NCBI GenBank assembly: GCA_027030245.1
Contig: JALVFE010000022.1
Span: 39,148 to 91,815, forward strand
Direction: 5' to 3'
Source of the DNA: Melioribacteraceae bacterium
Lineage (GTDB): Bacteria > Bacteroidota > Ignavibacteria > Ignavibacteriales > Melioribacteraceae
DNA: 52,668 nucleotides
Below the pieces are notes generated by a model that saw only the letters and a list, made by a program, of their open reading frames with translations, was not told the DNA's origin and made no database searches. A program made the position numbers and the translations under genes. Below are positions 20,473 to 48,037 of the stretch, piece by piece (position 1 is the first letter of the stretch; each line of letters begins with the position of its first letter).

Positions 20473-23400
20473 TTATTTTGTATCCAAAACTTTTACAAGA
20501 CCGGAATACTTTTTCTCAATCTTAAATCCGAATCTGTAAAAATATTCCGGGCGGAAAAAGCCCGTTGTAACATATTTAACTTTTTCAACGATTAATCTGT
20601 TGAAAAATTCGTTCATTAAACCTTCGCTTATACCTTTACGGCGATACGGGTTGGCTACCACAATTTTTTCCATATGTACCGTATCTTCGTTTTTTTGAAC
20701 GTAGAACAAACCGCCAATCAAATATCCTCTTTCAGAAAGCGCAACAAGGAATTGATGCTCGGGTCTGAAATGGACTTGCAAATTCGCATCAAGAAATAAA
20801 TTGTGCAAACGTGAAATTTCTTTTGGGGATATCGGTTTTCTTATTATGTAAGGATTTCCGTCGTAATCTTCCAACTGCACCACCAAATCGGCTGTTTGTG
20901 AACCTTCTTCTTTGATTTTAAGCAGTTTTGCGGAATCGGACGGCTTTAGGTACGGATAGCTTAATCTTGTCAAGAAATAAGATTCCTTTTCACTAAGCTT
21001 CAACTCGTTTTGCATTTTGGAAATATCGGTTAATATTTGTTCTTGCGAAGTTTTTCCTTCTTTTTCTTTTTTAATTAATTCCCTTAACATTTTTTTCAAT
21101 TCGTCCGATGAATCGGCAAAACAAGTTTCCAGGAAAAATCTTGCACGTGTTTCAGGATATGACTTCTCCACTTCGGCCAAATTATAAGTATCGTATAATT
21201 CATATAACATACTTGCTTGCGCTTCCAAAGCCGCATCTTTATTTAACTTAAACCACCGGTGAAATCTCTTTATTGCGAAATACAATCGTTTGGGAATATA
21301 ACCGTATTCTTCAACCGTTTTCAGAAAGAGCTGTAATTTTTCCATTACGTTATCCATTTCGGAAGGTATCTTAGTCTTTTTAAGTTCTTCTCCGAATAAT
21401 CCAATTATTTCCAAACCTTCCTTTTCACCTTTTGCATTAATAACGCCGGAGAAAACATAATTCCAAATAGAATCACGGTGAACAAACGGGTAAAGTTTTT
21501 CCGTTTCTTTTACGAACCGGAAATAGAAATTCTTAAAGAAATTTGTGAACGAAGTAAATGTTTTCTTTTCGGATAACGATACAATTCGCGTACCTGTTTG
21601 ATAATCGTGAGACGGAATAATAAAATTATGAATCGTGGGATTTGCAAGTATCAATTTGTTTTCGGTTAACTGCCAAAAATTAACGTATGCTGCCGCAGCG
21701 TTCCAAACGAAATACGGCCAAAGATGATATAACCTTTCTTCGCTCGCTTTTTCATGTCTTCTGAGTTCACGTTCCATAATTTTTGCAACGGTATTACCGG
21801 GGAGATATTTTTGAGTCCACAAATCATACATTTTATAATAACCGCCGAAATCTTCGACGAGTTCGTTAGCATAATGTTTGGTGCCAGCAATGATTAGCCA
21901 ACGGACTTCTTTTTTAACTTCCGATGGCGTTAACCCCTTATTCAAAGTCAACAACAATTCGAATGAACCGTGAAGCCTTGTTTGGATTGTTACTCTGAAA
22001 GTGGCTTTAATTTCATTGTTAGAAATCATGCTTACCCAAATACCGCCGGGAAGAATATTGTCCAGGCGGATAACAATTCCTTGGGTAAAATGAAAAACCG
22101 CTTCGCGCAAAACGGGACATTCGGTGATTCCGGATACAATTCTTTTTTTCAAATCTTCGGGTATTGATTCTTCCAAGATAATCACATCTTTCCATTCGTA
22201 TTCTTCGCCGGTTTCAATGTCAATCGCTACGGATTCGTTTCGACCAAGCCAACTTCTGAATCCTTTTTTCAACTTATTTCGTGAACGCGCTGCCAGTCCG
22301 GCTAACTTATTAAAATCTTTATGAATCTCAATGCTGGCAAGTAACCTTCTAATTTCACTGTAACGTGCGGGATGTCGAATTCCGTATTTCGTAATTAAAT
22401 CGAACAAAGCTTCAATAGACGGTTTAATAACATTCTGTTTGCGGCATTTTTCTACTTCTTCGAAAATTATTTTTTCGAGAGTTTCGAGATTTTCTTTCCC
22501 CTTGCTTTCGGCAATAATTGATTCGTTAAGTGCAGGATCAAGGAAGTCCGGATCGTAATCAATATGTAATCTGAGTAATCTGTAAAATGTTTCGGTTTTA
22601 ATTTTCGGAATCGCTTTCTTAAATAATTCCCTCCGGCATTCCAAATTACTTACGAGAAACGGTAATTCGATGAAATGCAAAGCGATTTTAAAAAGTTTAT
22701 CCGTTTCGTCTTCAAGAAGATATGAAAAATAGTCCAGCCCTTTTTGAGCAACCTGATTGTCATTACTCCTCAAATGCAGAATCGCATAATGTATTCCTTC
22801 CAAGGATTTTTCGTTGCCAGTAAAGATTGCTTGCAAATGTCTTTTTGTTTCTTCATCCAAGTCATCTATTGCTTCCGAAGAGTAAATGGTTATGCTATTT
22901 TCCGGAATATACTGTCTTTGCCATTGGATTATATTTTCGCCGGCGAATTCAAACAAATTACGGTTTCCGCACCAATATAAAGGATTGGTAAGCAATTCTT
23001 GTAATTCTATCTTATGCGAATCAATTTTATAATCATCATCCCCAATTCTGAAAATTTTATGTTGATCCTCAATCCTAAACACATTCAAGTGTTGATTTAA
23101 TTTCGGTATGGCAATTCCTCTTTCATCGGCAATGATATCCGTACTCAAACAACCTTTTTCTCTCAGGAACCAATTAGGCACACGGATCTCGATGTTATCG
23201 ACAAAAATCGATGTATGATTTTTAGTGTACATCGACTCGATAATTTCTTCGAAGTTTTTTTCAATGACCCGCCTTTTGTAAGTTCCTTTTGGGGTAAGTT
23301 CGCCGTAGTCGGCTGAAAACATTCTATCGATAATACGGAAATCCACTATTCTCTCAAAAGGCGCTAAAAATTTATTCACCGAAACTATAGCCGAAGCGAA

Positions 23401-25281
23401 ATAATCTTTAAGCTCTTGTTCTGTCATTTTTTTCAACATGGAATCCTTAATTTCATAATCGGGATATATTAATACCGTATTGAAAGGCCTATGATCACCG
23501 ACAAGAAAAACTTGTTTAATGTTTTCAAAATCTCTAAAGTAATTTTCGATTCTTTGCGGGGCAATGGTTTCGCCTTTAATATTCTTGTATATCTCTTTTT
23601 TTCTATCGATAATTTCGATAAAACCGTTTTCGTCCTCTTTCATTATATCGCCAGTGGGGAACCAGCCGTCTTTATCGAACGGACTTTCCGCATTATAATA
23701 TCCCATCATCACATAAGGACCTCTGATAAGCAACTCACCGTCGTCGGCAATTTTAATTTCGATACCGGGCAAGGCTTTACCTAAAGAGTCGGGCACGTAT
23801 TCTCCGGGCGGTGTCATCGTAATACCTCCGGTAGCTTCGGTCATTCCGAACCCGCTCATCAATTCGATTCCGTTTTTTTGGAAAAACTGAAAAATTTCGG
23901 CCGGCAAATAACCTGCGGCTGAAAGTCCCCATCTTAAACTTCCGCCTGTCGTTTCTTCCACGGTTTTTCTGATTATTGATTCGTCGTCCAATTCTATATT
24001 AACTTTGCTACCAACATATTCATAAAGCTGAATCCATTTTTTCGGAATGCTGATAAAAATCGTAGGACGTACCATCTGCATATTTTCCAGCATTGTCTCG
24101 AGTGAAGGATTTTCCATAAAAGAATACGATGCTCCCCAAAAAATACTTCCCATCATTTCCAACCATCTACCGAAGGTGTGATAAAGCGGAAGATATGATA
24201 AGAATCTGTCCTGGTCGCCTATTTCCGGAAGCGCCATCGCTCTACAAAATCTTTTGTATACGATGTTCATTTGCGAAAACATTATTCCTTTCGGTTCCCC
24301 CGTAGTTCCCGAAGTATACATAATAGTTGCTAATGAAGAAGTATCTACGGCGTCGACCAAATCTTTCTCCGTTTTTTCATCATAATGTTTTGCAAATTCC
24401 AAAAACTCATTAAACGTAATCACCCACTTTTCCGCACTGGAACCTTCTATCAAAACTACTTTTTTGAGATTCGGGACATCGTTCTTTATTGATTTAATTT
24501 TCGAGAGTTGTTTCTCATTGGATACAAAAGCTATTTCCGCTCCCGTTTGCTTTAGAATAAATTCTATATGTTGGGGCACCGAATTTGCAGGTATCATTAT
24601 ATTCACGATACCGGTTGTTAAGCATGTCAAATCCAGCTCAACCATTACAAGGCTGTTTTCCATAAGAAAAGCAACTTTGGGTTCTTCCGGTTCCAATTCC
24701 GAAATTAAACCGACCAATGCTTTTTTGTACGTATTTATTTTTTCGTCAATTTCCTTCCAAGTATATTGGGTTTTAACTTTTCCGCGTAGGACATTAAATA
24801 AAGTTTTGTTTTCATAATCGGAAAGTCTCTGGCGGAAAAGCTCGCGCACGTTAAAATTGCTTGATTTTATTAACTCATATATTAATTTATCCCACTTTCT
24901 ATCGTTATAGATTTTCTTAAGAAATGATGGAGTTCGAAATAAATTTAAGTATTGATGTATTAAATTCAAATTTATTTGACTTTCATCAGATTCATTTAAT
25001 TTGAGAAGATTATCTCCGAGTTCAAAATAAATTTGCGGATCGACATTCGCCATCATTTCTCCGGCAAGTTGGCTTGGAACCGTAGCGGAGAAAATTTCAA
25101 ATAAATTTTTTCGAATTTCTTCATTACCGGCAATATCCGGCTTCTCAAGAAATTCACGAAGAACATCATTAAATTCTACGCCTATCTTTTTTAATTGATC
25201 TTCGTCAAGTGCCGATTTGCCCGCAAGAATCCGGTTTTTCAAATCGGTTAATTGAAAGCTTATATTGTCTCCGGTATTCAT
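20473..25281 (-). CDS. Giant AMP-dependent acyl-CoA synthetase-like / GNAT acetyltransferase fusion protein
   Basis: 1602 residues. Residues 1-140 are helical and unrecognised. Residues about 145-690 are an ANL-superfamily adenylation domain of long-chain acyl-CoA synthetase type: P-loop TSGTTGEPKG (323-332), GFGMTEATGG (477-486), TGDI with Asp545, and the A10-like PKGTYKRR lysine near 665. Residues about 690-1400 are a long, partly alpha-solenoid, partly mixed region that I cannot assign; it includes a GGYYKMYDLW stretch near 1145. The last 130 residues form a GNAT domain with VANPYRRKGISEG as the acetyl-CoA loop. The likely chemistry is activation of a carboxylic acid plus an acyl transfer, but the substrate is unknown. 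No membrane helix is seen. It stands alone between pyrG and gltA. Confidence 0.8.
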   Translation of the reverse strand: MNTGDNISFQLTDLKNRILAGKSALDEDQLKKIGVEFNDVLREFLEKPDIAGNEEIRKNLFEIFSATVPSQLAGEMMANVDPQIYFELGDNLLKLNESDESQINLNLIHQYLNLFRTPSFLKKIYNDRKWDKLIYELIKSSNFNVRELFRQRLSDYENKTLFNVLRGKVKTQYTWKEIDEKINTYKKALVGLISELEPEEPKVAFLMENSLVMVELDLTCLTTGIVNIMIPANSVPQHIEFILKQTGAEIAFVSNEKQLSKIKSIKNDVPNLKKVVLIEGSSAEKWVITFNEFLEFAKHYDEKTEKDLVDAVDTSSLATIMYTSGTTGEPKGIMFSQMNIVYKRFCRAMALPEIGDQDRFLSYLPLYHTFGRWLEMMGSIFWGASYSFMENPSLETMLENMQMVRPTIFISIPKKWIQLYEYVGSKVNIELDDESIIRKTVEETTGGSLRWGLSAAGYLPAEIFQFFQKNGIELMSGFGMTEATGGITMTPPGEYVPDSLGKALPGIEIKIADDGELLIRGPYVMMGYYNAESPFDKDGWFPTGDIMKEDENGFIEIIDRKKEIYKNIKGETIAPQRIENYFRDFENIKQVFLVGDHRPFNTVLIYPDYEIKDSMLKKMTEQELKDYFASAIVSVNKFLAPFERIVDFRIIDRMFSADYGELTPKGTYKRRVIEKNFEEIIESMYTKNHTSIFVDNIEIRVPNWFLREKGCLSTDIIADERGIAIPKLNQHLNVFRIEDQHKIFRIGDDDYKIDSHKIELQELLTNPLYWCGNRNLFEFAGENIIQWQRQYIPENSITIYSSEAIDDLDEETKRHLQAIFTGNEKSLEGIHYAILHLRSNDNQVAQKGLDYFSYLLEDETDKLFKIALHFIELPFLVSNLECRRELFKKAIPKIKTETFYRLLRLHIDYDPDFLDPALNESIIAESKGKENLETLEKIIFEEVEKCRKQNVIKPSIEALFDLITKYGIRHPARYSEIRRLLASIEIHKDFNKLAGLAARSRNKLKKGFRSWLGRNESVAIDIETGEEYEWKDVIILEESIPEDLKKRIVSGITECPVLREAVFHFTQGIVIRLDNILPGGIWVSMISNNEIKATFRVTIQTRLHGSFELLLTLNKGLTPSEVKKEVRWLIIAGTKHYANELVEDFGGYYKMYDLWTQKYLPGNTVAKIMERELRRHEKASEERLYHLWPYFVWNAAAAYVNFWQLTENKLILANPTIHNFIIPSHDYQTGTRIVSLSEKKTFTSFTNFFKNFYFRFVKETEKLYPFVHRDSIWNYVFSGVINAKGEKEGLEIIGLFGEELKKTKIPSEMDNVMEKLQLFLKTVEEYGYIPKRLYFAIKRFHRWFKLNKDAALEAQASMLYELYDTYNLAEVEKSYPETRARFFLETCFADSSDELKKMLRELIKKEKEGKTSQEQILTDISKMQNELKLSEKESYFLTRLSYPYLKPSDSAKLLKIKEEGSQTADLVVQLEDYDGNPYIIRKPISPKEISRLHNLFLDANLQVHFRPEHQFLVALSERGYLIGGLFYVQKNEDTVHMEKIVVANPYRRKGISEGLMNEFFNRLIVEKVKYVTTGFFRPEYFYRFGFKIEKKYSGLVKVLDTK

Positions 25282-25344
25282 TTTATATTATAAATTTTTA
25301 TGGTGATATTTGTTTACTGAAAGATATAAATTTGCGGGACAAAT

Positions 25345-25367
25345 AAAAAAGGGGCATTAAGCCCCTT
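25345..25367 (-). terminator. Intrinsic terminator of citrate synthase gene
   Basis: On the minus strand the sequence reads AAGGGGC-TTAAT-GCCCCTT and runs into TTTTTT. The 7-base stem pairs 25349-25355 with 25361-25367, about 27 bases after the gltA stop. It separates gltA from the downstream ligase gene, so gltA is probably a single-gene transcript. Confidence 0.88.
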
Positions 25368-25393
25368 CATCATAAATTACCGTGAAATTAAAT

Positions 25394-26698
25394 TTATTTT
25401 ATTCCCGCAATCTCTTCCATCATTGCCGTGGTAATGGATTTGGGACGTTCGATCGGATATCCCAAAGCCCTGTCCCAAATTATGTTGGCACAAACACCAA
25501 GCGCCCTACCGACACCAAACAGTACGGTGTAATAATCATATTCCTTCAAACCGTAATGCCATTGGATAACGCCGGATTGTGCATCGACATTAGGCCACGG
25601 ATTTTTTGCTTTACCGTGTTCTTTCAAAATAGGAGGAACAACTTTGTAAAGTACATCGACGTATTTGAAGATAGGATCATCCGGGAGATGTTTCAAACAG
25701 AATTCCCTTTGCGCCATATAACGCGGATCCGTTTTACGCAAAACGGCGTGACCAAATCCCGGTATAACCTGACCTGAATTAAGAGTATCCCAAACAAATT
25801 TTTTCATTTCCTCTTCGGAAGGAACTTTGTCGCCCATTTTTTTCATTATACCTTGAATCCAACGTAAAACTTCTTGATTTGCCAAACCATGCAGAGGACC
25901 TGCCAATCCGTCTAGCATTGCGGAAATGGAATAATAAACATCTGAAAGGGCGCTTGCAACCAAATGACCTGTATGAGCGCTTACGTTACCACTTTCGTGA
26001 TCGCTGTGCAAAATGAAATACAAACGTGCAACATCATCGTAAGGTTTATCGATTCCCATCATGTGTGCAAAGTTTCCGCCCATATCCAAATGGGGATCGG
26101 GAGGAATAATATCACCGTTTTTATATTTGTGGCGGTAAATAAAAGCGGCAATTTGCGGCAATTTTGCCAAAAGGTTCAACGCATCCTCGTACATCGGGTC
26201 CCAATAATCCATTTTACTCATTCCTTCGTTGTATCTTTTTACAAAAACAGATTCTTTTTCCATCGATACGATAGCGGCAGAAAACATCGCCATAGGATGT
26301 GAATCTTTCGGCATCGCCCTTAAAACATCGAAAACATATTCGGGTACCATTTTACGTTTGTTGAATTCTTCGGCAACCGCATTTACTTCTTCTTCGGTCG
26401 GGATATCCCCGGTTAGTAATAAGTAAAAGAAACCTTCGACGTACGGCATTTCGCCGCCAGGAACTTTAGGCAATTTTTCCAGCACTTCAGGAATTGTATA
26501 ACCTCTAAATCGTATACCTTCGTAAGGGTCGAGGTAAGATATATCGGTAGTTAAGCATTTAACACCCCGCATGCCGCCAATAACTTGAGCGATTGATACA
26601 TCGGAAACTTTTACATCTCCGTATTCCTTTAGCAACCTGGTTGTTCTTGGTCGCCAACCGACAATTTTCTCGTACAATTTTTCTTTTAAGTTTGACAC
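25394..26698 (-). CDS. gltA: Citrate synthase, mitochondrial-type
   Basis: 434 residues. Catalytic segments are GPLHGLANQEVL (active His), PGFGHAVLRKTDPRY (second His) and KNPWPNVDAQSGV (Asp). The stretches around them closely resemble animal mitochondrial citrate synthase rather than the allosteric E. coli GltA. It condenses acetyl-CoA and oxaloacetate at the entry of the TCA cycle. The start is GTG at 26696-26698, supported by a strong AAGGAGG ribosome site; an AT-rich 154-base spacer upstream probably holds the promoter. It ends at its own terminator. Similar eukaryote-like enzymes are known in Geobacter and several FCB bacteria. Confidence 0.96.
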   Translation of the reverse strand: MSNLKEKLYEKIVGWRPRTTRLLKEYGDVKVSDVSIAQVIGGMRGVKCLTTDISYLDPYEGIRFRGYTIPEVLEKLPKVPGGEMPYVEGFFYLLLTGDIPTEEEVNAVAEEFNKRKMVPEYVFDVLRAMPKDSHPMAMFSAAIVSMEKESVFVKRYNEGMSKMDYWDPMYEDALNLLAKLPQIAAFIYRHKYKNGDIIPPDPHLDMGGNFAHMMGIDKPYDDVARLYFILHSDHESGNVSAHTGHLVASALSDVYYSISAMLDGLAGPLHGLANQEVLRWIQGIMKKMGDKVPSEEEMKKFVWDTLNSGQVIPGFGHAVLRKTDPRYMAQREFCLKHLPDDPIFKYVDVLYKVVPPILKEHGKAKNPWPNVDAQSGVIQWHYGLKEYDYYTVLFGVGRALGVCANIIWDRALGYPIERPKSITTAMMEEIAGIK

Positions 26699-26852: not shown

Positions 26853-28151
26853 CTATTCGCTTTTAATCAACTTTTCAATCTTATCCGCAGCGGTTTTCCC
26901 GCTCTTAACCGCCGATTCTATAGTGGAAGGCAATTTTGTATTTGTCCAATCTCCCGCAAAAACCAAATTTTTGTACGGCGCCTTAACCGAATTTCTCGCA
27001 CGTTCAAATTGTAAAGAAGAAACAAACGTTGCCCGTTTTTCTTTTATAATCAATATATCTTTTACATTCTTTCCGGTGAAATCCGGGAAATATTTAGTCA
27101 ACTCTTCCGTAACCTTCGAACGGATTATTTCTTTAGGCAATTTTATCAATTCCGTTGCATTACTTTTTACAAGTGTGATGTGTTTTTCGTGAACAAACAA
27201 CCAATGAAAAAATGAACCGGTAAACCCGTAAAACTTTTCATTAAATTCATAATTATTTAACCATAAATGTATTGACAGAATCGGTGATACCTCGAATTTT
27301 TCAAGTAGATTCTCATCGAGTCCGTTCTTCCGTATTTGCAAATAATTTGCGACCGGCACCGCCGAAATCACATAGTTGAATCCGGAATACATATTCTTAT
27401 TCGTAATAATTTTTGCTATTCGCCCGTTTTCAATTTCGAAACTTGTCACTCGCTCGTTTAACTTTACAACATTCCCCTTTTCACGTAAAAATTTCTCCGA
27501 AGGTTCGCAATATAAATCGCTCAAGCCGGTCTGAGGAATAATTAATGTGGACGCTTTGTTGCCGCGGAGGAACATCTCTATCAAAATCTCGCGGAAAACC
27601 AACGCAGATGCGCGTTCTGCTGTTGTATTGAAAGCTCCTACAATCAATAAATCCCAAAAATATTTCCTTGCGTTTCCCGTTTGGCGGGTTTTGTTTAACC
27701 ATTCTTCAATACTTAAATCTTTAAGTTTTGCTTCCGGTGTAAAAGGAAGTTTGGCAAAAAAACGGGTTAATGCCATTTTATCTTTTAAATCGAATCGCGG
27801 AAACGAGAACAGTGCATACATAAGATTAAAAGGATATAAAGTGGAATTCCCGCCTAATTTTAATTGCTCGCCACCATTTTCCACAAGGTTCAATTCAAGC
27901 GATTTTTGAAAATAGAGTTTATCCAATGAACCGATTTCGCGTAAATAATTAAGAGTGTACGGATAACATCCCATTAAAATATGTTGACCGTTATCCACAA
28001 AATCGTCATGCTTTTCAACGGGAAACGAATAAGCCCTTCCGCCTAATTTCGGCGAGGATTCGAGTAAGATTACTTTGTGATTTGATTTTGAAAGATAAAC
28101 CGCTGAGGAAAGTCCGGCAAAACCGCCGCCGATTATAACAATTTCGTCCAT
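26853..28151 (-). CDS. hpnE: Hydroxysqualene dehydroxylase / squalene-associated FAD-dependent desaturase
   Basis: 432 residues. The N-terminal FAD-binding dinucleotide fold is IVIIGGGFAGLSSAVYLS followed by the ESSPKLGGRAYSF motif. Near the C-terminus is NLVFAGDWTNTKLPSTIESAVKSG, the second FAD contact typical of amine-oxidase/phytoene-desaturase-like enzymes. In the HpnCDE pathway this enzyme reduces hydroxysqualene to squalene. Its ATG overlaps the hpnD stop by one base (TAATG). As the third gene of hpnC-hpnD-hpnE its role is strongly supported by context. By sequence alone it could be mistaken for a carotenoid desaturase. Confidence 0.92.
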   Translation of the reverse strand: MDEIVIIGGGFAGLSSAVYLSKSNHKVILLESSPKLGGRAYSFPVEKHDDFVDNGQHILMGCYPYTLNYLREIGSLDKLYFQKSLELNLVENGGEQLKLGGNSTLYPFNLMYALFSFPRFDLKDKMALTRFFAKLPFTPEAKLKDLSIEEWLNKTRQTGNARKYFWDLLIVGAFNTTAERASALVFREILIEMFLRGNKASTLIIPQTGLSDLYCEPSEKFLREKGNVVKLNERVTSFEIENGRIAKIITNKNMYSGFNYVISAVPVANYLQIRKNGLDENLLEKFEVSPILSIHLWLNNYEFNEKFYGFTGSFFHWLFVHEKHITLVKSNATELIKLPKEIIRSKVTEELTKYFPDFTGKNVKDILIIKEKRATFVSSLQFERARNSVKAPYKNLVFAGDWTNTKLPSTIESAVKSGKTAADKIEKLIKSE

Positions 28152-28990
28152 TAATAAACTAAACGATATTTAAGCCATACACCCAAAGCAATGAATACTT
28201 TATCGAATTTGGAAACTTTAATTTCTTTCTCAAAGACATTAAAATTTTGAGCTTCAAGTTTTTTCAAAAGTTTATAATAGATATGCTGCATTGCACGCGC
28301 AGGAAACAAAGCGGGTTTATCCGCAACATCCAAACTTTCATCAGCTAAACGGAAGAATTCTTCCGCGCGTTTTGCCTCGAATCTCATAAGTGATACGAAG
28401 TTGGAATTATATACATGATTAAACAACTCTTCTTCGGTGTAATTGAATCTTTCGAGATCTTCTTTCGGCAAATAAATTCTTCCGCGATCGGCATCTACTT
28501 TTACATCGCGCAGAATATTGGTCATTTGTAAAGCCATCCCCAAGTAAACGGCGTAGTCTTTTGTGGATTCTTTTTTATACCCGAAAATTGGGATGCACAT
28601 AAGTCCGACTGTTGATGCAACATGATAACAGTATTTTCTTAAATCTTCGAAATTCAAAAATCTGTTTTGCTGCAAATCCATTTCCATGCCCGCTATCAAA
28701 TCGTAGAAAGGTTCGAGCGGAATATTAAATTGTTTAATCGATTTGGCCAGTTTGTTCAAAATTTGGTATTCTGATTTTCCAACCAAAGCTTTTTCGAGCT
28801 CTTTCCGCCATTTCCGCAATTTTTCATATTTCAAGTCATCGGTCTCGTTTCCGCTATCGATAATATCGTCGGTAGTTCTGCAAAAAGCATAAACGTTATT
28901 CATTGCTTCCCTTTGGGCTGGAGGCAACAGACTGAAAGCATAGTAAAAACTGCTTTTGCTTTTTTTTGCTATTTCTTTGCTTGAGTTCAT
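28151..28990 (-). CDS. hpnD: Presqualene diphosphate synthase
   Basis: 279 residues of the squalene/phytoene synthase fold. The N-terminus KSSFYYAFSLLPPAQREAM is the HpnD form, then the first aspartate-rich motif TTDDIID and the second NILRDVKVD with the GRIYLP tail. HpnD joins two farnesyl diphosphates into presqualene diphosphate. Its start overlaps the hpnC stop by 4 bases (ATGA). It is probably soluble or loosely membrane-bound. A phytoene synthase activity cannot be ruled out by sequence, but the ordered trio with hpnC and hpnE argues for squalene. Confidence 0.92.
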   Translation of the reverse strand: MNSSKEIAKKSKSSFYYAFSLLPPAQREAMNNVYAFCRTTDDIIDSGNETDDLKYEKLRKWRKELEKALVGKSEYQILNKLAKSIKQFNIPLEPFYDLIAGMEMDLQQNRFLNFEDLRKYCYHVASTVGLMCIPIFGYKKESTKDYAVYLGMALQMTNILRDVKVDADRGRIYLPKEDLERFNYTEEELFNHVYNSNFVSLMRFEAKRAEEFFRLADESLDVADKPALFPARAMQHIYYKLLKKLEAQNFNVFEKEIKVSKFDKVFIALGVWLKYRLVY

Positions 28991-29850
28991 TTCACTATGG
29001 TTTTAATTAATAAACCGGCAAAATCCAATTTATTCAACGAAGGTCTTTTTCGCAATACATTATAATCATTTTTTTTTATCTTGTAAAGAATCTTTTTTCC
29101 CCCTAAAATCGTCCAACGAATTTCATGTTTTAACATACCCGGCAGATATTCAATAATTCTTTCTCCTTCTTCGAACATTTTCCGCGCACGCGAAACTTGA
29201 AAAGCCATCAATTCTTTGAATTGCTTGTTGGTTGTTTCGCTCTTAAACAAATCTTCCGTAACGCCGAACCGGCCTAATTCGTCTTGAGGAATGTATATTC
29301 TGCCTTTTGCAAAATCTATAGAAACATCCTGGTAAAAATTAGTAAGCTGCAATGCCGTACAAATTTTATCGGAATAATTTTTTGCTTTTTCACTATCAAT
29401 TTTCCAAAGCTCAAGGATCAGACGGCCAACGGGATTTGCGCTTCTCGAACAATAATCCGACAATTCATTAAAATCAGAATATTTCTTTTTCAAAACATCC
29501 TGTTTGAAAGCAGAAAGTAAATCGAAAAAATATCTGTCCGTCAAATTAAATTCCGTTATAGTATTTTTAAGAGCTGCCCAAAAAGGATCTTTCGGAAGCG
29601 TAGAAAGTGCTAATCGTAATGAGTTTTCATATTCACTTAATTTTCTAAGTCTTTCTTCATCCGGTAAATTCCCTTCATCCGCAATATCATCGGCAATACG
29701 GGCGAATTTATAAATTACCGCAACGTGTTTCCTTAAATGTTTCGGGACTAGGAAAGATGCAACCGGAAAATTTTCATAGTGTCCGGAAGCATAATTTAGA
29801 GCCTGGTTGTATTGTTCAGTCAGCTCATTTGATTTATTTACGATGTTCAT
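28987..29850 (-). CDS. hpnC: Hydroxysqualene synthase HpnC
   Basis: About 287 residues, also of the squalene/phytoene synthase fold. The family-typical opening SGHYENFPVASFLVPKHLR is followed by the first Asp motif FARIADDIADEG. The second motif is NFYQDVSIDFAKGRIYIP. HpnC converts presqualene diphosphate to hydroxysqualene. A TTG lies one codon before the ATG at 29848-29850; the ATG is the better choice. It is the first gene of the trio. A hairpin-like element ending in a T-run lies between it and tRNA-Leu (29875-29945), so it may be read from upstream past that element or from a promoter I cannot define. Confidence 0.92.
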   Translation of the reverse strand: MNIVNKSNELTEQYNQALNYASGHYENFPVASFLVPKHLRKHVAVIYKFARIADDIADEGNLPDEERLRKLSEYENSLRLALSTLPKDPFWAALKNTITEFNLTDRYFFDLLSAFKQDVLKKKYSDFNELSDYCSRSANPVGRLILELWKIDSEKAKNYSDKICTALQLTNFYQDVSIDFAKGRIYIPQDELGRFGVTEDLFKSETTNKQFKELMAFQVSRARKMFEEGERIIEYLPGMLKHEIRWTILGGKKILYKIKKNDYNVLRKRPSLNKLDFAGLLIKTIVK

Positions 29851-29953
29851 CAAGTTTTACCGGTGAAATTAAAAAGGCCGAACCAAAAGTTTATGATAAA
29901 ATTTATACTTCGGTGTGCAGTGAAAACTTACTTTCGAATCGGCCTCGAAGTTG

Positions 29954-30037
29954 TGCCCGGAACAGGACTCGAACCTGCACGGGATTACTCCCACTAGACC
30001 CTGAACCTAGCGTGTCTACCAGTTTCACCATCCGGGC
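29954..30037 (-). tRNA. tRNA-Leu (anticodon CAG)
   Basis: On the minus strand the 84-base sequence folds as a class II tRNA. The acceptor GCCCGGA pairs with TCCGGGC plus discriminator A. The D arm contains GGTGAAACTGGTAGACAC. The anticodon stem CTAGG/TCTAG holds loop TTCAGGG with anticodon CAG. There is a long variable arm (TGGGAGTAATCCCG), and the T arm has GGTTCGAGTCC. The 3' CCA is not encoded (CAA follows), so it must be added by the CCA enzyme. It sits 47 bases after the class A PBP gene on the same strand. Confidence 0.97.
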
Positions 30038-36372: not shown

Positions 36373-39300
36373 ATGAAACTAAAAGCTTTATCTTTTTTTG
36401 TATTTACTTTAATATTTTTTTCATGCAGCACACCGAATAAAGTTACGGTAACGTCATTCTCTCCTACAGGGGAAGTTGAGAAATACACAAACTTTACCAT
36501 AAAGTTTGACAAAGAATTAGCACCGGATACGTTAATAGACAAATGGGTCAAAGATGATTTCATTAAGTTCGAACCCGCAATAAACGGCAAATATAAATGG
36601 CTCTCCCCTTCCAAATTATTATTTTCACCCGAAGAACCTTTAGAACCGATGCAAAAATATAAAGCTGTTATAACTGATAAGGTTTTATTCAATAAGAATC
36701 TAAAACCCGATTTTAATACATACGGATTCCATACTCAGGATTTTGCCGTTACGAAAGCTGAATTTTTTTGGGATCATATTCCACATAAAAATTATCAATT
36801 GCAACTTTTCTCAAATCTTTATTTTAATTACAAAGTCAATCCCGATACTATAAAAAACTACATCAAAATAATTTTAAATGGTAAAGAAATAAGTGAGTTT
36901 AAAATCAATAGTCCGACTCCCACAAAAGTATTAGCAATTAACATTGGCACTGTTCAACAAGCGCGCAAGCCCCAGGAAATAAAGATACTCATAAAAAAAG
37001 GATTGAAATCGAGTATTGGCGGTACTCCTCTTTCGACGGATGTTTCGTTCGATGAATCGATTCCACCGATATCCGAACTTGAAATAACCGATGTAAATTC
37101 CGGCTCTGATAATAATAACATGTGGATTAGCATCTCAACCACACAAAAAGTTGATAAAGATAAATTGAAGGATTACATCGAAATAAATCCCGAATGTAAA
37201 GTGAAGTTTGTCGTATTGGACAATAAAATCAGAATCGTTTCCGATTTTAATAATGAACCGACCATAAAAATAAAAATTAAAAAAGGATTACCAGGATTGT
37301 ACGGCGGAAAACTTAGCGAAGACTTTGAACAAAAAGTTACTTTGGTTAATCTTGCCCCGTTTATAGAATTTGCAGACAGAACGGGAATGTATCTGTTGAA
37401 AAACGGTGAAAAAAACTTGACGGTGAAGGTATTAAATATTGATAAAATATCAGTAACCGTTTTCAAAATTTTTCAAAATAACTTAGTTCATTTTTTTAAC
37501 AGCAATAGATATGCGTATGAAGATGAAGATAGTTATTCCGACTATTACAATCTTTATGAAAACGGGAAAAATATTTATCACAAAGAGATCACGGTTAATG
37601 GGAAAAAGAATAAAGAAAAGGATATAATCATTAGTTTGAAAGATTTGCCCGAAGGGAAATTCAAAGGAATATATCTTGTTCGAGTAGATGATTCCGAACA
37701 CAGATGGAGAAACGATTATAAATTAATATCGTCTACCGACTTAGGCATTATAGCGAAACGTTCGAGAAGAAATCTGATGGTATTTGTAAATTCCCTTTCC
37801 ACGGCGGAGCCTGTTGTAAACGCTAAGGTTACGGTTATCAGCACCAATAATCAAAAAATACTTACACAAAAAACAGATGCGGACGGAATAGTAATCTTCA
37901 ACAATTATGTCGATCTTATTAAAGGTTTTTCAGGCAGGTTGGTTTTGGTTGAGCACGAAGACGATTTTAATTTTATTGATTTCAGAAAAAATTACGTGGA
38001 AACTTCCCGCTTTGATGTAAGCGGTAAAAATTCTTACATAAAATACAATGCATTTTTATACTCGGCAAGAAACCTTTACAGACCCGGAGAGAAAGTTTAT
38101 TTATCGGCGATATTACGGGATAATAACATCAACGTAATAAACAAATTACCTCTGAAGTTAAAAATCGTTAAACCTCAAGGCGGTACGCTGGAAACTTTCA
38201 GTCCGAAATTAAACGAACAAGGCTCCTTTGAAATTTCATTCACGCTTCCCGACTATGCTCAAACAGGCACGTATAAAGCAATTTTAAAGATAGCTTCCGG
38301 CGGTCATCTTGCCACATACAATTTTTTCGTGGAAGAATTTGTTCCCGACAAAATGCGTGTTACGGTTGAGAATAATAAAAACCATTACAAACCAGGTGAT
38401 AGTTTAATAACAAAAGTAAATTCGGAATATTTTTTCGGAGCGAAGGCTTCGGGTCTTAAAGTGGAAGAAGAAATTCAATTAAAAGAACAATCTTTTTTCA
38501 GTTTACGTTTTCAGGATTTTAATTTTTCAAATTTTTCATTAAAGGGAAAATCAATATCCAAAACCATTTTAGAAGGCAAAACAAATAAAGACGGTATTGC
38601 CGAAATAAAATATACAATACCCGATTCAATTGTTTCCGGTGGAGTTTATAAAGGAATTCAATTTATAAGCGTGTTCGATCCGACCGGAAGAACGGTAAAT
38701 AAGATTTCGTCTTTTAAAGTATTCCCCCGAAATTATTACCTCGGGATAAGAAACAGTGGATATTACTTAAGTACAAATAGCAATATTCATTATCAGTTTG
38801 TTGCGGTTGATGATCACGATAATCCTATTGATAATTTCAAAGCTACGGTAACCCTTGCAAAATACCGGTGGAATACCGTGCTCAAAAAGAACAGTGAAGG
38901 AAAATTTTATTACGACTCGGAATGGAAACCTCAAATTGTATGGAATAAAAACATAACAATGACAAAATCCCCTTACGATTTTTCGTTTACCGTTGATAAT
39001 ACAGGAGAGTATGAAATCAGAATTTCCAAACAAGGAGAAGAAGGATATGTAAAACATAGATTCTACGCCTACGGCTGGGGTAGCCGTTCGTATTCTTCTT
39101 TCGGAGTAAGCCGGGACGGCAAAATTGAAATGGTGCTTGATAAAAAAAGTTATCAACCCGGGGAAAATTGTAAAATATTATTCAAAACCCCGTTTTCCGG
39201 CAGAATGCTTGTAACTTTGGAAAAGGATTCGATTTATTATTACGGTTTCGTCAATGTTGAAAAGGGTTCGGCTGAATTGACTCTCCCAATAAAAGAAATA

Positions 39301-41751
39301 TATTTACCGAACGTTTACGTTACGGCTACATTATTCAGACCGCATTCCGCTAAAAATATGGCGCCGTTTATTGTTGGTCACGGTTTTCAAAACATTAAAG
39401 TAGAAAAGAAAGAATATCACTTACCAGTTGAAATTATTGCTCCAAAAAAAATTAAGCCGAACAGAACCCAAACCGTTACGGTAAAAACCAGACCGGAACA
39501 AAATATTTACGTTACGTTAGCAGCGGTTGACGAAGGCATATTGCAACTTAAGAATTATCAGACACCCGATCCATATCATTTTATGTATGCAAAGCAAGCT
39601 CTTAAGGTTGCAACTTATGACGTTTACAAATTCCTTTTACCCGAAATTCTGGCGCTTCAAACGTCTCCGGGCGGCGATGCTATGGAAAAACAAATTCAGA
39701 AACGGGCGAACCCGATAAAATCGAAAAGATTTAAACTTTTATCATTGTGGAGCGGAATTAAGAAAACCGATTCAAATGGAGAAGCCAAAATCAATTTGAA
39801 AATCCCGCAATACAACGGTGAACTCCGGTTAATGGCAATTGCATATAAGAATAAAAGTTTTGGAAGCGCTTCCTCTCCAATGAAAATAGCAGATGATTTG
39901 GTAATCGAACCTCAAATTCCGCGGGTTTTAACAATTACCGATAAATTAACAATGCCGGTAACTTTGATAAATAATACCGCTAAAAAAGGGAACGTAAAGG
40001 TTACGGTAAAAGTAAAAGACCCGCTGGTTCTTCTTTCAAAGGAAACGCAAGAAGTATCGATTGAACCGCATAATTCCGCCGTGGCAGAATTTGAAATTTT
40101 AACCAAGCCGAAAATCGGCAATTCCAAAATTACTATTTCTACTTCAGGAATTGCCAAATCAAAAGTGGAAACCGAAATTTCCATCAGACCGAATTTACCC
40201 TTGGTAACAACCAGCGGCACCGGAATTATTAACGGGGGCGATGAAGAAAAAATCGAGTTTCCTACAAATTATGTGAAAGGCACGGTATCAAGCAAATTGA
40301 TCATCAGTAATTTCCCAAGTATTAAATATGCCAAACAATTGAAGGAGCTTGTTCAATACCCTCACGGTTGCGTTGAACAAACCACTTCCAAATTATTTCC
40401 GCAATTATATTTTGACGATTTGGTTAAGCTGGTAGCGCCCGAAATATATGAACAAAACAACCCGACTTATTACATAAAAGCCGGAATTAAAAAACTTGAA
40501 TCGATGCAAATGTATAACGGCGCTATTGCATATTGGCCCGGCGGAAATTATACTTATCCGTGGGGATCGACTTACGCAGCGCATTTTCTGTTCGAAGCTC
40601 AAAGAAAAGGATTTAAAGTAGATAAAACCGTATTGTCAAACCTGATTTCATATCTTTCGAATCTCGTGAAACAAAAAAGCGAAAGGGATTATTATTATTA
40701 CGTAAACGGCAAAAGAATAATTAAAAAGCAAGCAAAAAAGGCGACCATATACGCGCTTTATGTTTTAGCTTTGGCAGGTCACAGCGATATTTCTACAATG
40801 AATTATTATCGCGCCAACCTTCATTTGGTGCCTGACGACATGATTTACATGTTAGCTGCCGCATACGCTTTGTCTAAAAAATGGGCTGCTGCATTCGATT
40901 TAATTCCCAAACAATATAGAATTATACAAGCTCAGCGCGAAACCGGCGGAAGTTTCGATTCGGAAATCCGAACGAACGCTATTGCCCTTAATATGCTGCT
41001 CGAAATCGATCCCTCTCATTCACAAATTCCTTTTATCATCGAATACCTTACAAATAAAGCGATGGATGCATACACAACGCAAGACAGGGCATTTCTGTTT
41101 TTAGCTTTGGGGAAAGCGGCTAAGAATTTGGCTCAGGAAAATTTGGCAATAGATATTTACGACGGCGAAAACCATATAGGTAAATATCATGGTAAAAATT
41201 TAATAATTCCCAACGGTAAGATTTCCGGTAATACTTTAACTTTGAAATCATCGGGAAAAGGCCAAGTTTACTATTACTGGGAACGCGAAGGAATTCCGGT
41301 TAATGTAAAAATAAAAGATGTCGATAAAGGTCTAAAGGTTAGAAGAAAATATTATGACTACAAGACAAATAAAGAAATAACAGACGGAAAATTCCGGCAA
41401 GGTCAATTGGTTTTATGTAAAATTTCCCTAACCGGATTAGATAGATCCGCCGAAAATATAGTAATTACCGATATAATCCCGGCAGGCGCTGAAATAGAAA
41501 ATCCGAGATTAACCGGAACATCACGAGTGCAAATGGACACCAAACAAAAACTACACGTACAATATTCCGATATCCGGGACGACCGTTTGATTCTCTTTAC
41601 AAACTTGAAAGCTAATAAAACAAAAGAATATTGGTATTTGTTACGCTTGGTTAACAAAGGGATTTTTATTGTACCGCCCATTACAGCCGATGCAATGTAT
41701 GCTAAAGAATTTCATTCAATAAACGGGGGTACATTAATTTTCATACAATGA
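36373..41751 (+). CDS. yfhM: Bacterial alpha-2-macroglobulin, lipoprotein, thioester-containing
   Basis: 1792 residues. The signal peptide ends in the lipobox IFFSC, with lipidation at Cys18 followed by Ser-Thr. MG-type beta domains run through the first 1300 residues, including the RPGEKVYLSAILRD and DYAQTGTYKA segments. The thioester motif is intact as GCVEQ (Cys1333, Gln1336) in YPHGCVEQTTSKLFPQ, followed by the helical TED with GGNYTYPWGSTYAAH. Bacterial macroglobulins trap attacking proteases in the periplasm and bind them through the thioester. It overlaps pbpC by 4 bases (ATGA), the classic yfhM-pbpC pairing, thought to couple protease defence to wall repair. Confidence 0.95.
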   Translation: MKLKALSFFVFTLIFFSCSTPNKVTVTSFSPTGEVEKYTNFTIKFDKELAPDTLIDKWVKDDFIKFEPAINGKYKWLSPSKLLFSPEEPLEPMQKYKAVITDKVLFNKNLKPDFNTYGFHTQDFAVTKAEFFWDHIPHKNYQLQLFSNLYFNYKVNPDTIKNYIKIILNGKEISEFKINSPTPTKVLAINIGTVQQARKPQEIKILIKKGLKSSIGGTPLSTDVSFDESIPPISELEITDVNSGSDNNNMWISISTTQKVDKDKLKDYIEINPECKVKFVVLDNKIRIVSDFNNEPTIKIKIKKGLPGLYGGKLSEDFEQKVTLVNLAPFIEFADRTGMYLLKNGEKNLTVKVLNIDKISVTVFKIFQNNLVHFFNSNRYAYEDEDSYSDYYNLYENGKNIYHKEITVNGKKNKEKDIIISLKDLPEGKFKGIYLVRVDDSEHRWRNDYKLISSTDLGIIAKRSRRNLMVFVNSLSTAEPVVNAKVTVISTNNQKILTQKTDADGIVIFNNYVDLIKGFSGRLVLVEHEDDFNFIDFRKNYVETSRFDVSGKNSYIKYNAFLYSARNLYRPGEKVYLSAILRDNNINVINKLPLKLKIVKPQGGTLETFSPKLNEQGSFEISFTLPDYAQTGTYKAILKIASGGHLATYNFFVEEFVPDKMRVTVENNKNHYKPGDSLITKVNSEYFFGAKASGLKVEEEIQLKEQSFFSLRFQDFNFSNFSLKGKSISKTILEGKTNKDGIAEIKYTIPDSIVSGGVYKGIQFISVFDPTGRTVNKISSFKVFPRNYYLGIRNSGYYLSTNSNIHYQFVAVDDHDNPIDNFKATVTLAKYRWNTVLKKNSEGKFYYDSEWKPQIVWNKNITMTKSPYDFSFTVDNTGEYEIRISKQGEEGYVKHRFYAYGWGSRSYSSFGVSRDGKIEMVLDKKSYQPGENCKILFKTPFSGRMLVTLEKDSIYYYGFVNVEKGSAELTLPIKEIYLPNVYVTATLFRPHSAKNMAPFIVGHGFQNIKVEKKEYHLPVEIIAPKKIKPNRTQTVTVKTRPEQNIYVTLAAVDEGILQLKNYQTPDPYHFMYAKQALKVATYDVYKFLLPEILALQTSPGGDAMEKQIQKRANPIKSKRFKLLSLWSGIKKTDSNGEAKINLKIPQYNGELRLMAIAYKNKSFGSASSPMKIADDLVIEPQIPRVLTITDKLTMPVTLINNTAKKGNVKVTVKVKDPLVLLSKETQEVSIEPHNSAVAEFEILTKPKIGNSKITISTSGIAKSKVETEISIRPNLPLVTTSGTGIINGGDEEKIEFPTNYVKGTVSSKLIISNFPSIKYAKQLKELVQYPHGCVEQTTSKLFPQLYFDDLVKLVAPEIYEQNNPTYYIKAGIKKLESMQMYNGAIAYWPGGNYTYPWGSTYAAHFLFEAQRKGFKVDKTVLSNLISYLSNLVKQKSERDYYYYVNGKRIIKKQAKKATIYALYVLALAGHSDISTMNYYRANLHLVPDDMIYMLAAAYALSKKWAAAFDLIPKQYRIIQAQRETGGSFDSEIRTNAIALNMLLEIDPSHSQIPFIIEYLTNKAMDAYTTQDRAFLFLALGKAAKNLAQENLAIDIYDGENHIGKYHGKNLIIPNGKISGNTLTLKSSGKGQVYYYWEREGIPVNVKIKDVDKGLKVRRKYYDYKTNKEITDGKFRQGQLVLCKISLTGLDRSAENIVITDIIPAGAEIENPRLTGTSRVQMDTKQKLHVQYSDIRDDRLILFTNLKANKTKEYWYLLRLVNKGIFIVPPITADAMYAKEFHSINGGTLIFIQ

Positions 41752-44054
41752 TTCAGGTTAATAAAAAAGTCTTGGTTAAAAAAGCCTTTTTTTATGCGGT
41801 TGGGATAATAATCATAATTTTTCTTTTGGATATTATCTTCCCTTTACCAAACCTGAAAAGGTTTTCCAAAGCGGTATATTCGGAAAACGGCGAATTGCTC
41901 TCCGCATATCTTACAAAAGATGACAAGTGGAGATTGGAAACAAATATCGATTCCGTTTCGGAAACCGCGATAAAAGTAATTTTATTCAAAGAAGACAAAT
42001 ATTTTTATTATCATCCGGGTGTAAATCCTTTTGCCGTTGTCCGTGCTTTTATTGGTAATCTAACAGGTGAAGGAAGAATTTCCGGAGCTTCCACTATTAC
42101 GATGCAACTTGTGCGGATTCTTGAGCCACACAAAAGAACATTATTCAACAAAATATTAGAAACGTTTAGAGCCTTTCAATTGGAACTTCACTATTCCAAA
42201 AAAGAAATTTTGAATATGTATCTCAGTTACGCTCCGTATGGCGGAAATATTGAAGGGATTACATCTGCGGCATACATTTATTTTAATAATGCCCCATCCC
42301 GGTTAAGCTTAGCCCAAGCTGCCGAACTTGCGGTAATACCGCAAAATCCGAATAGATACAGACCGGACAAGAATCCCGAACAAACGCTAATAAAACGGAA
42401 TAAACTTTTAAGAAAACTTCTTAAAGCTCATTTGTTTTCGGAGAAAGACATAAATTTGGCACTACAAGAGCCCGTTTCCGGTTATAGATTTCGTTTACCG
42501 GATTTAGCTCAACATTTCAGCAATTATGTAAGCAGACTATCAGAAGAAAATCAATTACTTACAACTTTAAACTTAAAAACACAATTTATTGCCGAGCAAT
42601 TATTACATCAACACATACAAAAACTTTCCCCGGAAGGCATTACAAACGGAGCAATACTTGTAATTAACAATAAAAGTCATCAAATAAAAGCTTATGTAGG
42701 TTCGGCAGATTTTTATGATGATAAAATTTCTGGTCAAGTTAACGGAATTAATGCCATTCGCTCGCCGGGTTCCACACTAAAACCTTTTTTATACGCTCTT
42801 CTTTTCGACAAAGGTTCGTTAACCCCGCAAACAAAAATTCCGGATATACCATTAAATTTCGGCGGATATCAACCGGAAAATTTCAATATGAAATTTCACG
42901 GCTACGTTTCCGCTCAATATGCATTGGCTAATTCATTAAACATTCCTGCGGTTTTACTTTTACAAAAGAGCGGTTTGAAAAATTTTATTACCCTGTTAGA
43001 ACACCTTAAATTCAATTTCATAAAAAAAAGTAAAAGAAAGCTGGGACTTTCCACAATTTTGGGCGGTTGCGGTGTAAGTCTTTTTGAACTGGTTACGGCA
43101 TACACGGTTTTTGCGAATAAGGGTAATTTATATATTCCGCAAATATTACTTAACAACAAAAATGATGCTCATACTACTGTTTTTTCGGAAGAAGCTTGCT
43201 ACTTAATTTCTAATATTTTAAGCTCTAATGAAAGGCCGGACTTGGAAGTCAATTTTTTCCCCGATACGAAATTACCTAAGATTGCTTGGAAGACCGGTAC
43301 CTCGCAAGGGAAACGCGATGCTTGGGCAATAGGTTACAATTCGAATTACACAATCGGTGTTTGGTTGGGGAACTTCGACGGAAAAGGAGCTCCGACATTA
43401 ACCGGCTCGCAAAAAGCCGTGCCGTTGTTAATCGAATTATTTAATTCAATCGATTACGGTTCTTCAAATAACTGGTTCCCCTTTCCAAAAAATTTAGACG
43501 AACGGAAAGTTTGCGCGGAGTCTGGCTTGTTACCAAATCAATATTGTAAAAATTTTACGTACGATTATTTCATTAAAAATGTTACTAATAATAAAAAATG
43601 TGATATTCATAAAGAATTCTACGTTAGTAAAGACGAAAAAATCAGTTACTGCACAGAATGTTTGCCTAAAAAAAATTATATTAAAAAAGTTTACCCGGTT
43701 TACCCGGAAGTTGTATCATATTGGTTTAAGAGCCAAGGTTTACAATCAGACAATCCACCAAAACATAACCCCGGATGCATCGCTTCCTTTAACGATAAAG
43801 GACCAACAATTTTATCACCGCAAAAGGATTTTCAATATTATATTAACAAGGAAAGAAAAGAGAAAATACTTTTACAAGCGGTGACCGACGAAAAAGCCCA
43901 TTTGATTTACTGGTTTGTCAATCAACAAATTAAAACAATTGTTTCCAGCGGCGCAAAGTTTTTTTATTCACCGGAAAGCGATTCGCTTTCACTCGTTTGC
44001 GTTGACGATTTGGGAAGAAAAAGCGAAATGAATGTAAAAATTATTTTCTACTGA
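41748..44054 (+). CDS. pbpC: Penicillin-binding protein 1C
   Basis: 768 residues. After an N-terminal membrane helix (11-31) comes a GT51 domain with EDKYFYYHPG (Glu82) and GASTITMQLVR (113-123). The transpeptidase domain has STLK (342-345), SLN (396-398) and KTGTS (515-519). The C-terminal 130 residues form the PbpC-specific domain (BiPBP_C), with CIASFNDKGPTILSP; a small Cys cluster (CDIHKEF, CTECL) precedes it. It polymerises and possibly cross-links peptidoglycan and works with the alpha-2-macroglobulin encoded directly upstream. The ATG lies inside the end of that gene. Confidence 0.95.
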   Translation: MIQVNKKVLVKKAFFYAVGIIIIIFLLDIIFPLPNLKRFSKAVYSENGELLSAYLTKDDKWRLETNIDSVSETAIKVILFKEDKYFYYHPGVNPFAVVRAFIGNLTGEGRISGASTITMQLVRILEPHKRTLFNKILETFRAFQLELHYSKKEILNMYLSYAPYGGNIEGITSAAYIYFNNAPSRLSLAQAAELAVIPQNPNRYRPDKNPEQTLIKRNKLLRKLLKAHLFSEKDINLALQEPVSGYRFRLPDLAQHFSNYVSRLSEENQLLTTLNLKTQFIAEQLLHQHIQKLSPEGITNGAILVINNKSHQIKAYVGSADFYDDKISGQVNGINAIRSPGSTLKPFLYALLFDKGSLTPQTKIPDIPLNFGGYQPENFNMKFHGYVSAQYALANSLNIPAVLLLQKSGLKNFITLLEHLKFNFIKKSKRKLGLSTILGGCGVSLFELVTAYTVFANKGNLYIPQILLNNKNDAHTTVFSEEACYLISNILSSNERPDLEVNFFPDTKLPKIAWKTGTSQGKRDAWAIGYNSNYTIGVWLGNFDGKGAPTLTGSQKAVPLLIELFNSIDYGSSNNWFPFPKNLDERKVCAESGLLPNQYCKNFTYDYFIKNVTNNKKCDIHKEFYVSKDEKISYCTECLPKKNYIKKVYPVYPEVVSYWFKSQGLQSDNPPKHNPGCIASFNDKGPTILSPQKDFQYYINKERKEKILLQAVTDEKAHLIYWFVNQQIKTIVSSGAKFFYSPESDSLSLVCVDDLGRKSEMNVKIIFY

Positions 44055-47840: not shown

Positions 47841-47929
47841 TTCAATCCGGTATTATCTGAAGTTAATTTTTACCAAAAATAAGGAAAATTCGGATTAAAA
47901 GTTAAACTAATAAAGCGGTGGAAAAAAAA

Positions 47930-48019
47930 GCCGGGAACTAACTACCCAAACCGAACGCTTACCGCTGCTTCCTTCCGGACCTGACGGGGTTGGGCGCCGG
48001 CTTGTCAATCAGCCCCGGC
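47930..48019 (-). ncRNA. ffs: Signal recognition particle 4.5S RNA
   Basis: The minus strand carries the near-invariant SRP core, read as GTCAGGTCCGGAAGGAAGCAGC, split here as GTCAGGTCCGG and AAGGAAGCAGC. The 5' GCCGGGG pairs with the 3' CCCGGC to close the rod, and a run of eight T follows directly as a terminator. About 90 bases, the small bacterial form without an Alu domain. It binds Ffh to target membrane proteins. It lies between the antiporter gene and a glycosyltransferase gene on the same strand. Confidence 0.95.
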
Positions 48020-48037
48020 AATCTTAAATAAGGATTC

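Follow-up and report, generated by a model that had tools for sequence, protein, structure and literature searches.

Prokaryotic lysine acetyltransferases (KATs) are divided, in the available part of one review, into a class I-alpha, in which an NDP-forming acyl-CoA synthetase domain is joined to a GNAT domain, and a class I-beta, in which a regulatory domain is joined to the GNAT (PMC6456759). In type I and type II KATs the NDP-forming domain is described, in the accessible part of a second review, as inactive yet able to bind acetyl-CoA (PMC8556138). Here we analyze a 52,668-nucleotide stretch of a Melioribacteraceae bacterium contig (JALVFE010000022.1, assembly GCA_027030245.1; the whole stretch is called the window below), which encodes a 1602-residue protein, P0001, with an AMP-forming synthetase module, a C-terminal GNAT and a large centre between them. 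The domain composition, the conserved residues and the recurrent fusion are established by sequence comparison. For the function we offer a tentative interpretation, held with rather less than even confidence, in which the protein would be a self-contained N-acyltransferase: the synthetase would convert a free carboxylic acid, ATP and CoA to the acyl-CoA donor, the GNAT would transfer the acyl moiety to an amine, most probably a protein lysine side chain, and the HEAT-like and pseudokinase-like centre would bind the target protein or a nucleotide and set the timing of transfer. Such a mode of work would be akin to that of bacterial Pat, an acyl-CoA-handling module with a C-terminal GNAT, but with an apparently active synthetase of a different superfamily.

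The class I-alpha KATs (Pat/YfiQ/PatZ) resemble the window protein in being large chains that combine an acyl-CoA-synthetase-type module with a terminal GNAT (excerpts of PMC6456759 and PMC8556138). Their NDP-forming module is inactive according to the excerpt of PMC8556138, whereas the module here is of the AMP-forming type with conserved active-site motifs, and a HEAT-like and kinase-like centre is added. Because the NDP-forming module that defines the class is absent, the window protein lies outside class I-alpha. NDP-forming modules belong to another superfamily than the AMP-forming synthetases. Class I-beta KATs (GNATs with cAMP-, ACT- or NADP-domains) likewise join a regulatory module to a GNAT (PMC6456759), but their regulatory modules are of other kinds, of 300–400 aa (PMC8556138), and they have no synthetase in the chain. 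Long-chain acyl-CoA synthetases (FadD11/FadD15/ACSL) share the AMP-binding and AMP-binding_C_3 domains, and a paralogue in the same genome shows 39% and 28% identity to two parts of the module; unlike them, the window protein is a fusion, scores well under the cut-offs of even the best-scoring long-chain models and has an altered C-terminal lysine motif. Fusions of the Aas type (acyl-acyl carrier protein synthetase/acyltransferase) also place activation and transfer in one chain, and the models PRK06814 and PRK08633 match the synthetase part; the Aas acyltransferase is of the PlsC/phospholipid type and not a GNAT. An AMP-forming ligase joined to a GNAT in one chain is absent from the accessible parts of three papers (PMC6456759, PMC8556138, PMC4053389), and no description of the fusion family was found, from titles and abstract openings, among the matches listed in the open-licence PMC literature.

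An earlier note, made from the sequence alone, had located the gene at 20473-25281, which is the right position; the strand, however, is minus, on which these coordinates form one open frame, while the plus-strand translation is riddled with stops. Its central proposal, an adenylate-forming domain and a C-terminal GNAT on one polypeptide, is borne out by Pfam, in which PF00501 AMP-binding reached 209.4 bits against a cut-off of 29.9, PF23562 AMP-binding_C_3 reached 50.7 bits, and PF00583 Acetyltransf_1 reached 24.5 bits against a cut-off of 20.7 over residues 1499-1566, within a GNAT span of about 1481-1600. The two AMP-binding models and two GNAT models matched all 19 members scanned, and among the 8 Pfam families listed at E <= 0.01 in these 19 there was no synthetase family other than PF00501. 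The presence of both end domains was checked in 35 members aligned end to end: AMP-binding domain, centre and GNAT stand in one chain in 35/35. As for the earlier question of whether the parts are always fused in relatives, every centre on a contig long enough to hold it lay in a frame of about 1600 codons, the exceptions being copies truncated or divided at or close to contig ends or spread over two contigs. Since relatives exist at 84 to 27% identity to the window protein (full-length alignment of 19), chance is excluded. The centre, for which the earlier note gave about 700 residues, is indeed devoid of Pfam or NCBIfam matches better than E ~0.03 in the 19 scanned members, although its length is nearer 790 (residues 690-1480). 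The features of the locus are collected in Table 1.

Table 1. Features of the P0001 locus, in window coordinates; residue numbers refer to the 1602-residue protein.
Feature	Position	Strand	Basis
Whole open reading frame P0001, 1602 aa	20473..25281	-	single open frame; full-length relatives
N-terminal region, residues 1-150	24832..25281	-	weakly conserved, mean identity 30% in near clade
AMP-binding (adenylate-forming) core, residues 155-529	23695..24819	-	PF00501 E 9.9e-62
Phosphate-loop motif MYTSGTTGEPKG, residues 321-332	24286..24321	-	T323, S324, G325, T327, G328, K331 35/35
AMP-binding C-terminal subdomain, residues 568-688	23218..23580	-	PF23562 E 2.9e-13
K665, invariant Lys of altered A10-like motif LTPKGTYKR	23287..23289	-	Lys 35/35
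Beta-rich module, residues 688-800	22882..23220	-	AlphaFold2 blocks; W704, W770, N773 35/35
HEAT/TOG-like helical solenoid (predicted), residues 805-1014	22240..22869	-	AlphaFold2 model and VIA matches
Degenerate protein-kinase-like region (probable), residues 1034-1330	21292..22182	-	profile comparison; low-confidence model
Helical region, residues 1331-1460	20902..21291	-	block pLDDT 60-80 to ~1437, <50 beyond
GNAT domain, residues 1481-1600	20482..20841	-	Pfam and PDB profile matches
E1538, candidate general base	20668..20670	-	acid at 1538 in 32/35, at 1536 in 3/35
RRKG, residues 1547-1550, acetyl-CoA pyrophosphate loop	20632..20643	-	R1547 33/35, G1550 35/35
Promoter-like site just 5' of the frame	25287..25316	-	consensus scan
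Terminator-like hairpin between citrate synthase and the frame	25348..25368	-	8 pairs, 5 GC, then T run
Citrate-synthase-like gene, 434 aa, upstream neighbour	25394..26698	-	cluster c1

In the synthetase module, S324, G325, T327, G328, T481, E482, D545 and R560 are identical in all 35 aligned members, and conservation is complete or almost complete across the motifs TSGTTGxPKG, GFGMTE, TGD and DRxK. The earlier description of complete core motifs comes close to the mark. The C-terminal lysine motif is altered: there the family typically has TPKG(T/S)xKR, while two long-chain-type enzymes of the same genome have TPTLKLKR and TPSLKIRR. R670, like K665, is invariant; position 667, the shared lysine of the two long-chain-type paralogues, is Thr or Ser in 35/35; and at position 669 there is Lys in 27 members, Asn in 7 and Arg in 1. 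The presumed place of the catalytic lysine, 667, has no Lys, K665 stands two residues off, and the alignment does not single out a catalytic lysine.

The same motif bears on a second explanation, one of the two main alternatives, which we regard as unlikely: by analogy with Pat and AcuA acting in trans, the protein might be a self-regulated acyl-CoA synthetase whose GNAT acetylates the K665/K669 region of its own chain and shuts it off when acyl-CoA is plentiful. GNATs are described as acetylating AMP-forming ligases in trans, which stops adenylation (available part of PMC4053389), and the constant pairing of synthetase and GNAT in one chain and the invariance of K665 would fit such a switch. 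Lys669, however, cannot be the general target, because 8/35 members have Asn or Arg there while the GNAT glycine and acid are retained throughout the 35, even though two of the eight (L042 and L073) have lost R1547; moreover, this explanation gives the large centre no role. The eight members are themselves distant ones (L041, L042, L073, L074, L079-L082), and their changes at Lys669, together with the two losses of Arg1547, suggest altered chemistry in the distant clade.

Within the GNAT, the first position of the R/QxxGxG/A loop is R1547 in 33/35 members and G1550 is present in every one; the third position is Ser in 23/35 and Gly or Ala in 12/35. A 35-row profile of the domain, compared with the PDB, found 42 sequences at E <= 0.01 and placed four Tetrahymena GCN5 sequences first (E 5e-11), followed more than 4 orders of magnitude behind by a predicted acetyltransferase (1.6e-6) and by human KAT2A (2e-5). 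The GCN5 strand EVAF, whose Glu we take to be the GCN5 catalytic base, aligns onto residues 1536-1539 of the window protein, and an acid stands on this strand in all 35 members. In GNAT and MYST enzymes a catalytic glutamate serves as the base, although not every bacterial GNAT has or needs one, according to the excerpt of PMC8556138. As for the lipid or protein modifier envisaged in the earlier note, the GNAT looks more like the amine and protein-lysine acetyltransferases than like the lipid ones. Because the NCBIfam matches of the domain are mixed and the base is not universal in bacterial GNATs, protein-directed transfer is stated as a preference, which draws on the GCN5 similarity and the conserved acid.

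A further reading, which we hold to be equally unlikely, makes the protein a small-molecule or lipid N-acyltransferase that would join fatty acyl-CoA to a soluble amine and so yield an N-acyl amino acid or amino-lipid. It draws on the synthetase, whose top NCBIfam matches are models of fatty acid:CoA ligases, both under their cut-offs (FadD11, 216 of 950 bits; PRK06187, a long-chain ligase subfamily, 210 of 476), and to which a paralogue in the genome shows 39% identity over residues 423-687 with 28% over 145-433, and on the presence of an amino-acid N-acetyltransferase model among the GNAT matches. The closest solved GNATs, in contrast, are GCN5 histone acetyltransferases, no gene set travels with the family, its neighbours varying by clade, and the scaffold-like centre would suit a protein substrate better.

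Several observations weigh against the self-contained, protein-directed N-acyltransferase that we put forward. Adenylation by the synthetase may be impaired, given that every one of the 35 members has Thr or Ser at the presumed position of the catalytic lysine and K669 is not universal. The synthetase resembles long-chain enzymes, GNATs mostly use acetyl-CoA, and the donor and acceptor modules may for these reasons lack a common substrate. GNATs also acetylate small molecules, and the NCBIfam matches of the domain point in several directions (PRK07757, an N-acetyltransferase, in 33/35; RimI in 32/35; the amino-acid N-acetyltransferase model in 32/35), with the window protein far under every one of these cut-offs. 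The evidence separates our interpretation only weakly from the self-regulation and small-molecule alternatives. A more specific proposal, that the family forms a distinct class of bacterial protein acyltransferases that make their own donor, with an active AMP-forming synthetase, a HEAT solenoid plus pseudokinase and a GCN5-like transferase, we consider fairly unlikely as it stands.

The earlier note had also supposed that the centre may hold a third enzyme, an idea that gains no support from the analysis, which points instead to a beta module, a HEAT-like solenoid and a kinase-like fold without kept catalytic residues. The structure prediction and fold search that it proposed gave good models of the beta and solenoid parts and low confidence for the kinase-like region. 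An AlphaFold2 model of residues 688-1480, built from 4 sequences and therefore shallow, had a mean predicted local distance difference test score (pLDDT) of 61. Block pLDDT was 80-88 over residues 688-777, in the beta module, falling to 73 and then 53; it was 69-91 over the solenoid (810-1007), dropped to poor values in the kinase-like region and recovered to a fair 60-80 over 1328-1437. In the model, about 210 residues after the beta module form a HEAT-like helical solenoid, for which VIA structure matches included ATR (Z 10.8), CLASP2 TOG1 (Z 10.3), TOG domains and designed repeats, at Z values that unrelated helical repeats also reach; no HEAT model was among the Pfam matches of the centre in the 19 members. 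In Foldseek, PI3K and mTOR entries made up 5/50 rows, among other solenoid proteins, none at E <= 0.001. A HEAT solenoid followed by a kinase is the order of PI3K/PIKK-type proteins.

A kinase-derived fold is probable for the region that follows, residues ~1034-1330, judging from profile comparison and modelling. By eye, the order of elements is kinase-like: three strands and a helix, a hinge-like stretch (...FGGYY..DLWTQKYLPGNTV), helices, and (D/N)xxP-N-(V/F)-I. In hhalign comparison with a local Pkinase set, hinge fell on hinge and catalytic loop on catalytic loop, with a score of 26.6 for 35 rows over residues 1015-1330. With 46 rows over 1034-1330, the score against the first kinase set was 34.2 (E 5e-4 for this single comparison), whereas 150 column shuffles reached at most 30.6 and 14 control families at most 25.3. 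Reversed queries gave 16-17. Against a second, broader kinase set (E 0.009) the score was 25.8, above the best shuffle (24.8) and not better than the best control (25.3); because of this second result our estimate for the fold was lowered from a high to a good probability. The subsets gave weaker results: in the near clade, control family c6 (27.2) scored level with the kinase set (27.7), which speaks against a kinase, and in the distant subset the kinase set (21.8) lay below one phosphotransferase set (22.1) and slightly above the best control (20.3). Aminoglycoside-phosphotransferase likeness was considered and dropped, the local sets scoring at control level.

Searches of public collections were less telling. 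A kinase call from the PDB was discarded: a 19-row centre profile had put the STK4/MST1 hinge first at E 0.27, and this match was gone with a deeper profile. With this deeper profile, of 35 rows over the subregion, the places of the STK4/MST1 rows were taken by YcgR, ribonucleotide reductase and ribosomal proteins, with no E-value under 0.18, and Pfam and NCBIfam scans of the centre returned nothing. A second AlphaFold2 model, of residues 1034-1372, again from 4 sequences and shallow, was of low confidence (pLDDT 52.6). Kinase folds filled 43/50 first Foldseek rows for this model (best E 0.16, none at E <= 0.001), but these rows are supportive and nothing beyond that, because a few proteins recur (many are MET, Eph receptors or FAK), superposition is poor (template-modelling score ~0.12-0.18, root-mean-square deviation mostly 15-18) and kinases are abundant in the PDB. 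The best VIA rows were non-kinases, namely a nuclear export factor, a nuclear pore subunit and ribosome hibernation factors (Z <= 5.6); among or below such rows, at Z 3.6-4.6, model residues 4-106 resembled the N-lobes of CDC7, choline kinase and antibiotic phosphotransferases, and residues 126-243 the C-lobes of RET, PRPK, CASK and TYK2.

Whether the region could be an active kinase-fold enzyme, giving the chain three activities, turns on its catalytic residues. The kinase-like order of elements and the profile match would favor it, as would N1219, at the position of the catalytic-loop Asn, which is kept in 32/35, and the Asp that 9/35 have at the catalytic position. The position of the catalytic HxD Asp, however, with its register taken from hhalign, is Asp in just 9/35 and Asn in 13/35, including the window protein; S1235, placed by eye at the DFG Asp, is Ser in 33/35; and no beta-3 Lys is evident by eye. 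An active kinase is thus unlikely from the residues, and a chain with three activities is in our estimate very improbable; given this degeneracy, the region is more probably a pseudokinase-like module than a further enzyme.

A 19-row centre profile found the family in 33/294 genomes of the class, in 32 of them within one frame of 1515-1638 aa; in the remaining carrier, genome G325, the centre match is spread over two contigs. When the centre was searched for across the phylum, 16/296 genomes proved to carry it. On the Calditrichota side, it is present in 22/40 genomes of the phylum of one relative, 18 copies being near full length (1555-1638) and the other four truncated or divided at contig ends or close to them; one of the 18 (L159, genome G550) has an in-frame TAA within an otherwise long frame. 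The named relatives are a Melioribacteraceae metagenome-assembled genome (84% identity) and two from Calditrichota (48-49%). The gene is accessory, being absent from relatives in the same family. In a tree of 46 members, with the root placed on f51 by choice, 12/13 Calditrichota-side sequences group together (support 1.0) next to the main clade of Ignavibacteria; the Calditrichota-side sequence L185 and L040 (f2) branch outside both clades, and f3/f2, f11 and f51 lie further out.

Among the 23 near members, mean pairwise identity was 62% in the synthetase and 69% in the GNAT, against 28% in the solenoid and 42% in the kinase-like region; between these and the 12 distant members, the corresponding means were 38, 26, 13 and 18%. 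In the near clade, the two ends are thus the most constrained parts while the middle drifts, as expected for two enzymes joined by a scaffold.

The gene neighbourhood provides no partner for the whole family, since neighbours differ between clades, and the accompanying genes asked about in the earlier note include none that is constant. The window protein is flanked upstream by a gene that we take, from its sequence, to encode a citrate-synthase-like product, and downstream by a presumed CTP-synthase-like gene. The citrate-synthase cluster c1 lies 5' on the same strand in 15/35 loci, from families f1 and f2 and all within the near Ignavibacteria clade; it is directly adjacent in 12 (gaps 18-390 bp) and further away in 3 (1176-2971 bp). 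It was found in 0/16 Calditrichota-side and 0/12 distant-clade loci within the available stretches, some of which are short; for L009 and L028 the stretch ends just 5' of the gene. Because a terminator-like hairpin and a promoter-like site stand between the two genes in the window, their co-transcription there is doubtful; the scan gave 12 terminator-like and 23 promoter-like sites, where shuffles gave 6.3 +/- 2.6 and 19.9 +/- 3.9, respectively. On the Calditrichota side, one neighbour in 8/16 loci is a protein of up to 1549 aa, by eye a surface protein with cadherin/Ig-type repeats, which was considered as a functional clue and yielded none. A sirtuin was found in 29 of the 31 carriers that were searched, out of 33 in the class, so that reversal of acylation by sirtuin is possible; its presence is non-discriminating, because 25/25 non-carriers also have one. 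A scan of viral contigs confirmed no relative.

Other features of the window and genome were recorded. Three genes 5' of the citrate synthase (26853-29853, minus strand) presumably encode a squalene/phytoene desaturase and two squalene/phytoene synthase-like proteins (HpnE/HpnC/HpnD type); clusters c2 and c3 each occur in 12/35 loci. The window also holds a tRNA-Leu(CAG) at 29954-30037 (minus strand), a bacterial small signal recognition particle RNA at 47925-48020 (minus strand) and, at 36373-44054 (plus strand), a 1792-aa gene overlapping the start of a 768-aa gene, which we take to be an alpha-2-macroglobulin-like lipoprotein and a PBP1C-like protein, respectively. Elsewhere in the same genome (G000:C21:334843-385005), giant frames of 2131-3433 aa weakly match the AMP-binding part and perhaps form a cluster of the non-ribosomal peptide synthetase type.

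If the proposed N-acyltransferase function is true, the family would represent a bacterial protein acylation enzyme with its own ligase, through which a free acid, instead of the acetyl-CoA pool, could directly drive the modification. The lysine-acetyltransferase scheme would gain a class, a metabolic acylation enzyme would be seen to contain a pseudokinase-like module, and a function would be assigned to a family carried by 33 of the 294 genomes of the class and by 22 of 40 in another phylum.
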